DNA of 64,000 bases from Chamaesiphon sp. 341R_metabat_111 (GTDB taxonomy: Bacteria > Cyanobacteriota > Cyanobacteriia > Cyanobacteriales > Chamaesiphonaceae): the NCBI GenBank assembly GCA_025351825.1, contig JANXVE010000160.1, forward strand, positions 1 through 64,000. Direction: 5' to 3'. A program made the position numbers and the translations under genes. Shown piece after piece: positions 10,814 through 51,514 of the stretch; the first letter of the stretch is position 1; each line of letters begins with the position of its first letter. The notes beneath the pieces were generated by a model. The model was given only the letters and a program-made list of their open reading frames with translations. It had not been told where the DNA came from and ran no database searches.

Positions 10814-13699
10814 TTAATTAGTAAAAATAAGCTTCGATCGAACCACATTCACTAACTGCAATTCCATCCCAGACACCTGCTCTAACATAAACACCATCTG
10901 TTCGGGACGCAACAATGTTCCATCATTTGCACAACTCCCCACATATCGCAACTCCACATCCTTATCGCCAGCAACTTTCAACAACTCCAATTCATATAAA
11001 CGCTCTCGCAAATTGATTTGTGTATTCTTGCCAGATTTAGACTTTTTATTCTGAATAATTTCCTGACTAGCTAACACCGCCGCGATCCAAGCTTCCCACT
11101 GGAGCGGTGTTTCGCTAGCTGATGAAACAGTAATCAGATATTCTGCTTTAGTAATTAACGCTGAAGCCGCAGGTTGTTTGAGATCGACGGATTCTACTCG
11201 ATAGATTGGAATATCTGCGGGTAATTGCGCGGCTAGCTTGGCTTGAAATTCTGCCTCATCCATCATGGTGGTGAGTTCAAAATCGGCGATTTCACCCGTG
11301 CTGGTTGAGCCTAATGGTAAAGCATTGGCAATCATGATGCGGGGGGCGGGATGGAATCCCCCACTATAGGTTACGGGAATACTGGCGCGGCGGATAGCTC
11401 GATCGAATAATTTGGCTAAATCCAGATGTCCGATTAGGGACATTTTGCCACTTTTGCCATACCAAACGCGCAGCCGCTGAACTTTATCGGTGTTGGGGGT
11501 AAATTGTCCGGTGAATTCGGGAATGGGGAGGGGTGGGACGATGACATTGTGCCCGAAATCGGTGCCACACACGCCGCAATGGGAGCAACCATCGAATGAG
11601 CAGTCGGGGACAATTCCAGCGGCGAGAGCGCGTTCTAGGTCGTCTTGGAGCCACTTTTTGTCGATACCCGTGTCGAGGTGATCCCAGGGGAGAGGGGCAT
11701 TGAGGTTGTGGGGGAGGAAGATGGGAGTGTTTGTGGGTAGCGGGGTGGGCAGGGTACCCATTAAGGGCACCCCTACGGATGCTGGTGTGTTAATAGGATC
11801 TGTTGGTGCGGATTCGCCTGTGGCTAGGCGGGGCTTGAGTTTTGGAGCGCGACTATTAATGACAGATCCTGGCATGACACTAGGATCTGTAGGGGTATCC
11901 CTTGTGGGTACCCCGCCATCTTCGCTACCCACACCAAAGCCCTGCTCGGCGACTGGTGTTTCGGCGGAGATATTTACCCCACCCCAGCCCTCCCCTTGAA
12001 AAGGGGAGGGGGTAAGAGAAGAGGACTCGTTCTCAAATACATTCCATTCGCCATTTTCGACGCGGCGATATTTCCAGTCTAAACCAGCTTCGTCGATCGC
12101 TTGTGCCCAGGCACCGTAGGCTTTTTCTAGACTTTCCCACCAAGCATCCATGCCTGCGCCGAGTTCCCAGGCGCGTTTGATGACTGGTGCGAGAGATCTG
12201 TCGCCACGTCCGACAAAATCTTCCATTGCTGAGATCCGCACGTCGGTATAATTGACCTTAACGTCGCGCAGATTGTAGAACTCATGCTTGAGCAACCGTT
12301 GTTTACGATCGAATTCCGTAGTCGAAACCGAGTGCCATTGAAACGGTGTATGGGGCTTGGGCGTGAAATTGGAGATGGTGATATTAAAGTGCAACATGCG
12401 TCTACCCTTTGCCCAACATTCCCGCTTGAGCCAGCGCACGGTTTCGGCAATCCCGACGACATCAACATCGGTTTCACCTGGCAAACCGATCATAAAGTAG
12501 AGCTTGATCTTATCCCAACCCTGCTCGAAACCCGTCTTCACGCCGCGTAGCAATTCTTCATTCGTCAAACCCTTATTGATAATATCCCGCAGCCGCTGGG
12601 TACCCGCTTCCGGCGCGAAAGTTAAGCCACCTTTGCGCGTACCACCGATGATATTGGCGATATCTTCATCAAATCTATCCACCCGCTGACTGGGGAGTGA
12701 GAGGGAGATATTCTCATCCTTGAGCCGATTCTTGATTTCCAAGCCCACAGCGGGAAGCGCGAGATAATCCGAGCAACTGAGCGAGAGGAGCGAGAATTCA
12801 TCATAACCCGTCGATCGCATTCCCGTCTCGATCGCATTGATTACCGCTTCCGGCTCCACATCCCGCGCAGGGCGAGTCAACATTCCAGGCTGACAAAAGC
12901 GACAGCCACGGGTACAACCACGGCGAATTTCGATGGTTAATCGATCGTGTACAGTTTCGACATAAGGCACCAACCCGATCGAGTATGCTGGAATCGGGGT
13001 AGCTACCCGTCGCAGAATCCGCTCCGGTACATCAGGATGATTGGGCTTGACGTTCCCATCGGGATGCGCGTCGTAGAATTGCGGCACATATACACCTGGA
13101 ACCTGCGCCAAATCCAATAATAAATCGCGCCGACTCAGCCCCGCATTTTTACCATCTTCAACCACCAACCCAATTTCGGGTAATAACTCTTCCCCATCTC
13201 CCAAGGCGATAAAGTCAAAGAAATCCGCATAGGGTTCGGGATTGGATGTCGCCGTCTGTCCCCCTGCAAAAATCAGCGGATAATTACCCACTTCACGTTC
13301 GCGCCACGTCAGGGGAATCCCCGCCAGAGTCAACATCTCCAAGATATTCGTCGCCCCCAACTCATAGCTGAGACTAAAACCGAGAATATCAAATTCCGCC
13401 AGAGATTTCTGCGACTCCACCCCAAATAATGGTGTCTGAGTATCCCGTAACTTCTGCGCCAAATCTGCTGCGGGAAGATAGGCTCGATCGCACAATTGGC
13501 GCGGCTGGGCGTTGATAATACTGTAGAGGATAATATGCCCTAGATTACTCGCCCCAACTTCATAAATCTCTGGATATGTCAGTGCCCAGCGAACTGTCGC
13601 ACTCTCCCACGGTTTATGCACCGCACCGAGTTCGTTACCGAGATAACGCGCTGGTTTGAGGATTTCAGGAGTAATGAGACTATCTACTGCAACTGCCAC
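10814..13699 (-). CDS. TIGR03960-type radical SAM protein with TIGR03936/DUF2344 domain
   Basis: The 961-residue protein has a B12-binding-like N-terminal region (residues ~20-200, with YELGATNILEML and GGQTATSNPEPYADFFDFIALGDGEE-type motifs). The radical SAM core carries Cys262, Cys266 and Cys269 in GCTRGCRFCQ, which bind the 4Fe-4S cluster. The C-terminal DUF2344 domain (YGKSGKMSLIGHLDLAKLFDRA, FHPAPRIMIANALPLGSTS) ends the chain. The joining linker (about residues 555-665) is unusual: it is built from dispersed repeats translated in frame. A Cys cluster (CSFDGCSHCGVCGTDFG) follows the linker. Start is GTG at 13699. The substrate is not known to me; RNA or ribosome modification is a guess. 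Confidence 0.88.
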   Translation of the reverse strand: MAVAVDSLITPEILKPARYLGNELGAVHKPWESATVRWALTYPEIYEVGASNLGHIILYSIINAQPRQLCDRAYLPAADLAQKLRDTQTPLFGVESQKSLAEFDILGFSLSYELGATNILEMLTLAGIPLTWREREVGNYPLIFAGGQTATSNPEPYADFFDFIALGDGEELLPEIGLVVEDGKNAGLSRRDLLLDLAQVPGVYVPQFYDAHPDGNVKPNHPDVPERILRRVATPIPAYSIGLVPYVETVHDRLTIEIRRGCTRGCRFCQPGMLTRPARDVEPEAVINAIETGMRSTGYDEFSLLSLSCSDYLALPAVGLEIKNRLKDENISLSLPSQRVDRFDEDIANIIGGTRKGGLTFAPEAGTQRLRDIINKGLTNEELLRGVKTGFEQGWDKIKLYFMIGLPGETDVDVVGIAETVRWLKRECWAKGRRMLHFNITISNFTPKPHTPFQWHSVSTTEFDRKQRLLKHEFYNLRDVKVNYTDVRISAMEDFVGRGDRSLAPVIKRAWELGAGMDAWWESLEKAYGAWAQAIDEAGLDWKYRRVENGEWNVFENESSSLTPSPFQGEGWGGVNISAETPVAEQGFGVGSEDGGVPTRDTPTDPSVMPGSVINSRAPKLKPRLATGESAPTDPINTPASVGVPLMGTLPTPLPTNTPIFLPHNLNAPLPWDHLDTGIDKKWLQDDLERALAAGIVPDCSFDGCSHCGVCGTDFGHNVIVPPLPIPEFTGQFTPNTDKVQRLRVWYGKSGKMSLIGHLDLAKLFDRAIRRASIPVTYSGGFHPAPRIMIANALPLGSTSTGEIADFELTTMMDEAEFQAKLAAQLPADIPIYRVESVDLKQPAASALITKAEYLITVSSASETPLQWEAWIAAVLASQEIIQNKKSKSGKNTQINLRERLYELELLKVAGDKDVELRYVGSCANDGTLLRPEQMVFMLEQVSGMELQLVNVVRSKLIFTN
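11752..12010. repeat. Cluster of dispersed repeats inside the radical SAM gene
   Basis: Three repeat units lie in the coding region without breaking the frame. GGGTACCCATTAAGGGCACC begins the first (11752-11776); an inverted relative, GTAGGGGTATCCCTTGTGGG, lies at 11888-11914; and a perfect 10 bp stem CCCTCCCCTT/AAGGGGAGGG lies at 11988-12010. The first type recurs outside genes at 51436-51460. Together they encode a Pro/Gly/Thr-rich linker. Confidence 0.8.
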
Positions 13700-49468: not shown

Positions 49469-51379
49469 ATGACTGTAATTCCGCCATTGCCAGTGTCTCC
49501 GGTGACACCATTGCTTGCGCGCCTAACTAGTAAACTCAATCGGATCGACCCTTCTCCTGGTCTGGTTGTGATGTTGTTATCTGTCCTGATTGGCGGTACA
49601 GCGGGATTGGGAGTAGTTTTATTTCACTATCTGATCGATCTATTCAACAGCTCCTCTCATAGTTTGGTTGTCGATGACATCAAGGGGCTGTTGCACATTC
49701 AAGGGACTTGGCTATTTGCCTTGGTGCCTGTACTTGGTGGTGTCATTATTGGAGCCATGCGCTGGTACTGGAAAGATTTTGGTCCAAATATGAATTCGAT
49801 GATTGCGGCTACCCAAGCGGGTAAGAAGATTACGCCGTGGCGGGGACTAGTCAAGATGGTGGCGGCAGCGGTATCGCTGGGAACTGGTGCTTCCCTGGGT
49901 CCTGAGGGGCCGAGTGTAGAAATTGGCGCGAATTTGGGGATGTTTTTGGGACAGGCTTTAAATGCATCTCAGGAGCGACAGCGGTTATTGCTGGGTGCGG
50001 GGGCAGCGGCGGGGATTGCGGCGGGATTTAACGCACCGATCGCTGGTGTGTTTTTCGCCCTAGAATTGGTATTGGGGACGACGTTTGCGACTTCGGCGGT
50101 GAGTGTGGTGGTGTTGGCGGCGGTGGTGGCATCGTTGGTTGCTCAGATTGGGTTAGGTGCAAAGCCTGCGTTTGCAATCCCTGTGTATGAGGTCAAGAGT
50201 TTATTAGAATTACCTCTGTATTTAGTCTTGGGCGGGTTGGCGAGTCTAGTTTCTTTTACTTATACTCAAACTGTAGATTTTGCGCGGGAAGCATTTCAGG
50301 GCAAGATAAAAGCCGTCTCATGGTTGGGCAAAATTCCTGGCTATTTGACTCCAGTAATTGGCGGCGCGGTGGTGGGAATTGTGGCTCTGAAGTTTCCCCA
50401 AGTCACGGGGATTGGCTATGAAACGATCGAAGCGATGTTGCAGGATGTGCAGTTTTCGGTGTTTTTATTAGTTTCAATTCTGATCGTCAAACTGTTGATG
50501 ACGGCGGTAAGTTTGGGCAGTGGTTTAGTCGGTGGTTTATTCGCGCCATCGATGTTTTTGGGCGCGACGGTGGGAGCGATTTATGGCAAGTCCTTGGTGC
50601 TAATATTTCCAGCACTCAGTAGCCAGATTGCTGGCCCACCAGCCTATGCAATGGTCGGAATGGCTGCTGTACTAGCGAGTAGTGCGAGAGCACCCTTGAC
50701 GGCGATTCTACTGATGTTTGAGCTGACTCGTGACTATCGGATCGTCTTGCCTGTAATGGCCTGTGTCGGTTTGAGCATGTGGGCGATCGAACGGATGAAT
50801 CCCAAAACCAAGTCGCCCGAAAATTTGGATAAATTAGCTCTGAGCGTTCAGCCAGATGGGGATTTAGTCATTCTCTGCAATCTTCAGGTGCGGGACGCGA
50901 TGGATATCAATTATCTCCGGTTATCCGATCGGTTGGACATTCTCGCCGCTGGGTTAATATTAACTCAAAATAATTGTCATAGTGCCTTGGTAATTGACGA
51001 TCGGGAGGAGTTGGTAGGAATCATCACCCTGCACGATCTGAGTCGGGCAATTTCCCAAGCAGAAGCATCACCACAAACTAGTCTGCTTTTGAGTAACAGC
51101 TTGGGTAGCGTTTGTACCAAAAATCTCTTCTATGCTGATGTCGATGAACCAATTACCGATGCAATCGATCGAATGAATGCCAGAGGTTTACATCAATTAC
51201 CCGTGATCGATAAGTCCACTCCTGGTTTGGTGATTGGCATTCTTCAACAAGAGCAGATCGCCCTCGCTTGTAGCGTTGCAACTACCCGTCAGGCTTTGAG
51301 TAAGTATGACGTGGTGGTAGACAGTACAGAAGCAGACGAATTACCACGATTAAAATCACAGATTACTTGGCACGCTTAG
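49469..51379 (+). CDS. ClC-family chloride channel/transporter with CBS domains
   Basis: The 636-residue protein has a ClC core (residues ~30-430) with GTGASLGPEGPSVEIG, which carries the gating Glu146, and AGFNAPIAGVFFALE. Two CBS domains follow (VRDAMDINYLRLSDRLDILAAGLIL, then ADVDEPITDAIDRMNARGLHQLPVID). GREGP is GPEGP here. It exchanges or conducts chloride across the membrane; the CBS pair may bind a nucleotide. ATG at 49469. Confidence 0.92.
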   Translation: MTVIPPLPVSPVTPLLARLTSKLNRIDPSPGLVVMLLSVLIGGTAGLGVVLFHYLIDLFNSSSHSLVVDDIKGLLHIQGTWLFALVPVLGGVIIGAMRWYWKDFGPNMNSMIAATQAGKKITPWRGLVKMVAAAVSLGTGASLGPEGPSVEIGANLGMFLGQALNASQERQRLLLGAGAAAGIAAGFNAPIAGVFFALELVLGTTFATSAVSVVVLAAVVASLVAQIGLGAKPAFAIPVYEVKSLLELPLYLVLGGLASLVSFTYTQTVDFAREAFQGKIKAVSWLGKIPGYLTPVIGGAVVGIVALKFPQVTGIGYETIEAMLQDVQFSVFLLVSILIVKLLMTAVSLGSGLVGGLFAPSMFLGATVGAIYGKSLVLIFPALSSQIAGPPAYAMVGMAAVLASSARAPLTAILLMFELTRDYRIVLPVMACVGLSMWAIERMNPKTKSPENLDKLALSVQPDGDLVILCNLQVRDAMDINYLRLSDRLDILAAGLILTQNNCHSALVIDDREELVGIITLHDLSRAISQAEASPQTSLLLSNSLGSVCTKNLFYADVDEPITDAIDRMNARGLHQLPVIDKSTPGLVIGILQQEQIALACSVATTRQALSKYDVVVDSTEADELPRLKSQITWHA

Positions 51380-51435: not shown

Positions 51436-51514
51436 GTAGGGGTGCCCTTCATTGGTACCCTAAATCTATGCCTAGCTCTATAAATGTTGGGTTTCATTTT
51501 TCAACCCAACCTAC
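51436..51514. repeat. GTAGGGGTGCCC unit and inverted GTTGGGTT unit
   Basis: First a GTAGGGGTGCCCTTCATTGG unit at 51436-51460 (the family found inside the radical SAM gene), then an inverted GTTGGGTT palindrome at 51485-51514. The end of the latter is translated as the last residues of moaB. Confidence 0.8.

Follow-up and report, generated by a model that had tools for sequence, protein, structure and literature searches.

Two palindromic repeat families probably inserted in frame in the linker of a Chamaesiphon radical SAM protein

Introduction

GTAG-tagged REPs, of which 24 families were described by Di Nocera et al. (2013; PMC3733652), prefer extragenic positions and form inverted dimers. 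Several species are reported to have REPs within ORFs (PMC3733652; PMC3116915), and it was proposed that intragenic copies may be neutral through their location in flexible linkers or loops (PMC3733652). The best-known in-frame palindromic inserts are those of the obligate intracellular Rickettsia, whose palindromic elements (RPEs; 105–146 bp, PMC2229807) occur in intergenic DNA and also, in frame, within conserved proteins, where they occupy the same site in orthologues and are tolerated by the protein (PMC2229807, PMC3767692). Here, palindromes that share these features with RPEs are described from many proteins of a free-living phototroph, Chamaesiphon. The window, the whole 64,000-nt stretch of DNA that was analyzed, belongs to a 4.06-Mb draft genome in 202 contigs (G000). 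An original prediction had read dispersed repeats in one of its genes as a translated linker at a domain boundary, and that interpretation is supported overall. An Rfam search over the window matched a tRNA only, and a literature search, which is weak evidence as it was confined to open-licence papers, found no Chamaesiphon report of the two repeats, R1 and R2, or of the linker.

Results

Gene and linker

The repeat-bearing ORF (Table 1) encodes 961 residues and is open throughout, so that the frame is kept across the repeats as predicted. NCBIfam and Pfam matched residues 12–544 to TIGR03960 (radical SAM) and the part from residue 742 to TIGR03936/DUF2344, and by these matches the gene is assigned as the cyanobacterial TIGR03960–TIGR03936 (radical SAM plus DUF2344) fusion, which was present in nearly all relatives searched. 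The repeats fall between the two matches, in agreement with the predicted domain-boundary location.

The linker was 124 residues long in G000 vs. 18 residues in both sister-genus genomes; relatives lacking the repeat had been expected to have a short linker, and by this comparison the predicted ~110 residues were about right. Outside Chamaesiphon, the median was 31.5 residues (104 unique linkers), while linkers within the genus measured 124, 134, 128, and 110 residues. The additional ~105 residues are largely dispersed repeats, with parts of the linker matching neither R1 nor R2, and no counterpart segment was found in the sister genus or in any other cyanobacterium examined.

Table 1. Positions in the window of the fusion gene, its linker, and the R1 and R2 repeats
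Feature	Position	Strand	Evidence
Repeat-bearing TIGR03960–TIGR03936 fusion gene	10814..13699	-	NCBIfam and Pfam matches
Interdomain linker, 124 residues, bounded by conserved YR and LPWD motifs	11693..12064	-	Length comparison at 116 cyanobacterial loci; dN/dS
R1 copy A, GTAG-tagged REP, in-frame reading SVGVPLMGT	11752..11776	-	Exact R1 pattern match; folds as a hairpin that leaves GTAG unpaired
R1 copy B, GTAG-tagged REP, antisense to gene, slightly degenerate	11889..11913	+	Weaker hairpin; G006 counterpart fits pattern exactly
Imperfect inverted repeat, two 72-nt arms enclosing both R1 copies	11732..11933		11741–11811 resembles RAYT flanks over 72 columns
R2 palindromic repeat, opposite strand in frame = LTPSPFQGEGWGGVNIS	11964..12020	+	53 genome sites; copy listings
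R2 perfect 10-bp stem, 3-nt loop	11988..12010	+	Sequence; fold
R1 copy between convergent genes	51436..51460	+	Flanking ORFs end at 51379 and 51494

R1

R1 is a 25-nt REP with the pattern GTAG-GGGTGCCC-TTAAT-GGGTACCC, folding at -15.3 kcal/mol into an 8-bp stem and a 5-nt loop with the GTAG unpaired. A pattern search permitting two mismatches found 157 sites in G000, far more than chance would give, vs. none for the reversed pattern, which had zero matches in the genus; R1 was present in eight of nine genus genomes and in none of 51 genomes outside Chamaesiphon. Sampled copies lay mostly outside long ORFs, and inverted dimers (opposite orientation, ~11 nt spacing) were frequent in G000 and G006. 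The repeat was predicted to recur between genes at 51436, and a copy does lie there between convergent ORFs (Table 1).

The inverted repeat pair expected within the gene was recovered as arms at 11732–11803 and 11862–11933, 75% complementary, spaced by 58 nt and holding two R1 cores. In the near-complete congener G006 (3 contigs), both linker REPs, at 5561353 and 5561490, matched the pattern exactly, and they are therefore not an artefact of draft assembly. Apart from the linker pair, 34 R1 copies of G006 were sampled, and no convincing intragenic case was seen.

When PF01797 (Y1-transposase) genes were gathered across the genus, R1 copies were found directly adjoining those of three congeners (L222, L227, and L229). 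Linker positions 11741–11811 aligned with the flank of the L229 RAYT at 77.8% over 72 columns, far past the 25-nt REP. Neither of the two Y1 genes in G000 itself had R1 at its flanks; one of these genes is flanked by a different GTAG palindrome. The spread of R1 is presumably due to a RAYT, a Y1 single-strand transposase.

Compared with GTAG REPs, REPtrons, and REPINs (PMC3733652; Bertels and Rainey, 2011, PMC3116915), R1 likewise combines a short-looped 8-bp stem with a terminal GTAG that stays unpaired, occurs in many copies that are mainly extragenic, often forms inverted pairs, and neighbours Y1 transposase genes; its class rests on these features. The R1 dimers differ in that their GTAG ends face inward, and the linker pair lies ~112 nt apart, not ~11 nt.

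R2 and other proteins with in-frame repeats

R2, which is unrelated to R1, is a palindrome of ~55 bp in which several frames are open. The predicted 10-bp perfect stem was confirmed inside it at 11988–11997 / 12001–12010. R2 occurred at 53 sites in G000, likewise far above chance, vs. none for the reversed pattern, and in eight of nine genus genomes, with six matches in three genomes outside the genus. Its consensus has no GTAG next to the stem, which sets it apart from GTAG REPs, and it is an unclassified repeat.

Like RPEs, R2 is a palindrome found in frame in conserved proteins. However, at ~55 bp and centred on Chamaesiphon, it falls outside the size and lineage of RPEs, from which both repeats differ in organism and sequence; in addition, most R1 and R2 copies are extragenic, the content of the joint varies among congeners, and R1 is RAYT-linked. 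The predicted resemblance to Rickettsia elements holds for the in-frame repeats but not for their kind: two unrelated families are present, and R1, as a GTAG REP linked to a RAYT, is not of the Rickettsia RPE type.

A search of other coding regions of the genome, as originally proposed, detected three tandem in-frame R2 copies between the CbiA and GATase_3 domains of CobB, R2 in frame in a GH38-type alpha-mannosidase, and a degenerate R1 in a gamma-glutamyltransferase. CobB orthologues of G001, G008, and the sister genus were free of repeats, while a single site in gamma-glutamyltransferase carried R1 in G000, R2 in G002 and G004, and neither in G005, G006, and the sister genus. Across the genus, in-frame R2 copies were carried by 11 or more kinds of protein (three checked by family search, the rest named by sequence recognition). 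In the DNA-ascertained census, based on pattern searches plus fetched stretches, G000 and G002 each had 53 R2 sites; 3 genes of G000 contained R2, and 9 of the G002 copies lay inside genes (8 genes in all). As the bulk of a bacterial genome is coding, these few intragenic copies mean that R1 and R2 are strongly depleted in genes; with the larger share of each family lying between genes, those within coding sequence form a tolerated minority. Repeats in six long ORFs (L015, L035, L019, L109, L298, and L367) were rejected as insertions because they lay near 5′ ends and were judged to be in upstream regions.

A third repeat, PPQPPLESGC..LVGFPDGLAHQAGGA (L270; L043/L130), was in frame in CobN and the G004 linker, usually just ahead of R2, with which it looks like a composite unit. 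The linkers of G002 and G004 bear an extra PPQPPLE insert that is seen again in CobN (L270) and in further proteins.

History and coding character of the linker

In the four complete congeners the reading frame was unbroken and the linker homologous in sequence, with lengths differing by whole codons. R2 in the linker was degenerate in G006 and the R1 arms were absent from G004. A tree of the radical SAM part grouped G000 with G004 (93/97 support) and G006 with G003 (86/95). Because G000, G002, and G006 all carry the R1 pair, its absence from G004 is most simply a loss, which, like the ancestral gain, depends on this single gene tree and its 93/97 support.

A homologous linker common to all complete congeners is what would be seen if it were an old functional segment of the family in which palindromes arose by coincidence within coding sequence. 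That explanation is extremely improbable, given that the segment is absent from the sister genus and the other cyanobacteria examined, that near-exact copies of its repeats are dispersed and mostly intergenic, and that G004 lacks the R1 arms. An old protein domain had also been expected to leave the same conserved linker in distant relatives, and no conserved linker sequence was found there.

Estimates of dN/dS were 0.30–0.47 for the linker, rough values because the alignment is uncertain there, 0.03–0.06 for the radical SAM part, and 0.06–0.12 for DUF2344; the linker thus appears to be under relaxed purifying selection with coding-like substitutions. In an AlphaFold model, linker pLDDT was mostly <35 without secondary structure, but the whole model was poor (mean 55.5, 29 sequences), too poor to be used in support of linker disorder.

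Reading frame of R2

A finding from a CobB protein search that R2 is always read in one frame was discarded because that search favoured the frame, and frames were recounted from DNA hits only. In this DNA-ascertained set (G000 and G002), R2 was read as LTPSPFQGEGWGGVKIS in nine of nine distinct genes, although only 30 of 97 copies are open in this frame and 8.5% of random open insertions would be predicted to use it. The nominal probability is ~2e-10, for a test that was post hoc and with insertions that may partly share history. Beyond this set, the gamma-glutamyltransferase of G004 carries R2 in another frame. The single-frame bias is probably real, and it hints at selection on the peptide.

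Tolerance of insertions does not predict such single-frame use, which would be explained if LTPSPFQGEGWGGVKIS were selected as a reusable linker cassette, one frame being kept because it works as a spacer. The linker dN/dS, being below 1, also accords with selection on the peptide. Even so, this explanation is unlikely: the CobB and gamma-glutamyltransferase joints of congeners lack R2 with no obvious harm, the G004 gamma-glutamyltransferase breaks the rule, the test was post hoc, and the favoured peptide is no more hydrophilic than those of the other frames. The corresponding account of R2 itself, as a coding-compatible mobile cassette of which one frame in six gives a linker peptide kept by selection, is similarly doubtful; by that account, R2 would spread into protein joints as a ready-made spacer because selection keeps the peptide. 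Insertion of tolerated parasites into flexible joints is the best reading. The frame bias makes the choice between tolerated parasite and selected linker directly testable.

The same joint in other cyanobacteria

Scattered cyanobacterial lineages have long linkers at the radical SAM/DUF2344 joint. Linkers of ≥60 residues, chosen in part by eye, were compared against their own genomes, and dispersed repeats of the same genome were found in those of at least 11 other cyanobacteria (L048, L142, L143, L203, L139, L135, L063, L131, L132, L198, and L074; G033, G050, L137, and L169 are outside this count). The first six of these were chosen by eye and therefore give no rate. The control linkers L140 and L158 (the latter shorter) matched only themselves. 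Repeats of Microcoleus, Moorena, and Symploca resemble R1 and R2 in filling the same joint and in matching many other sites in their own genomes, but their sequences are unrelated, and many consist of short-period tandem units in place of a single palindrome. Judged from these sequence comparisons, the joint is filled independently with different repeats in other cyanobacteria.

This variety bears on whether the palindromes act as nucleic-acid elements, that is, as mRNA hairpins for translation or stability or as recombination sites, with the residues incidental. R1 copy A and R2 do form stable hairpins, and the C. polymorphus gene is broken right past R2 by another GTAG-REP-like pair and unrelated sequence. 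A nucleic-acid role is nevertheless quite improbable, because the hairpin set is not conserved (no R1 in G004, degenerate R2 in G006), other genera fill the joint with many unrelated repeats, several of them tandem and non-palindromic, and the substitution pattern is coding-like.

Discussion

The long linker very probably consists mostly of two palindromic repeat families that were inserted in frame at a flexible, length-tolerant joint, where they are tolerated and persist. R1 would most likely arrive through RAYT-driven single-strand transposition. Insertions elsewhere in genes would mostly be purged by selection as protein-breaking, while those entering flexible joints in a stop-free frame would persist and be translated, then drift under relaxed selection and be gained or lost in whole codons. 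We infer that the linker is disordered and nearly neutral for the enzyme. Through its repeat-free orthologues and the recurrence of repeats at one joint, the Chamaesiphon case supports the suggestion of Di Nocera et al. (PMC3733652) for neutral intragenic REPs. Gains and losses of repeats within one genus can be placed on a tree, and one joint holding unrelated repeats in many lineages is a natural experiment on the sites that tolerate mobile DNA.

Other palindromes

In C. polymorphus CCALA 037 (L141:5813–6035; also L042), the frame stops just past R2, where an inverted pair resembling GTAG REPs (GTAGGTTGGGTT...AACCCAACCTAC) is located; beyond it, the other strand has unrelated transporter-like sequence, and the DUF2344 part is found at the beginning of a separate contig (G003:C742). 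Either the gene was split by rearrangement at the repeats or the assembly is chimeric. In a Microcoleaceae linker at the same joint (L139:4638–4917), GTAG palindromes of a different type, long in the loop and with outward-facing GTAG ends, form a pair that is apparently an independent REP insertion at the same protein site.

Downstream of the Y1 genes of L222, L227, and L229, R1 lies in an unusual array of tandem ~133–135 bp units with a second GTAG palindrome (GTAGGGGCGGTGC...GCCCGCCC). Other GTAG palindrome families (GTAGGGTGGGCACTGCCCACC, GTAGGTTGGGTT..., and GTAGGGGCAATTCATGAATTGCCC) adjoin other Chamaesiphon Y1 genes (L230, L231, L233, L226, L210, L235, and L236), so that four or more REP/RAYT pairs seem to be present in the genus. 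Beside the intergenic R1 copy of the window, a GTAG palindrome from a different family (minus strand, GTAGGTTGGGTTGAAAAATGAAACCCAAC) at 51487–51514 overlaps the 3′ end of a 173-residue MoaB-like ORF and contains its stop codon.
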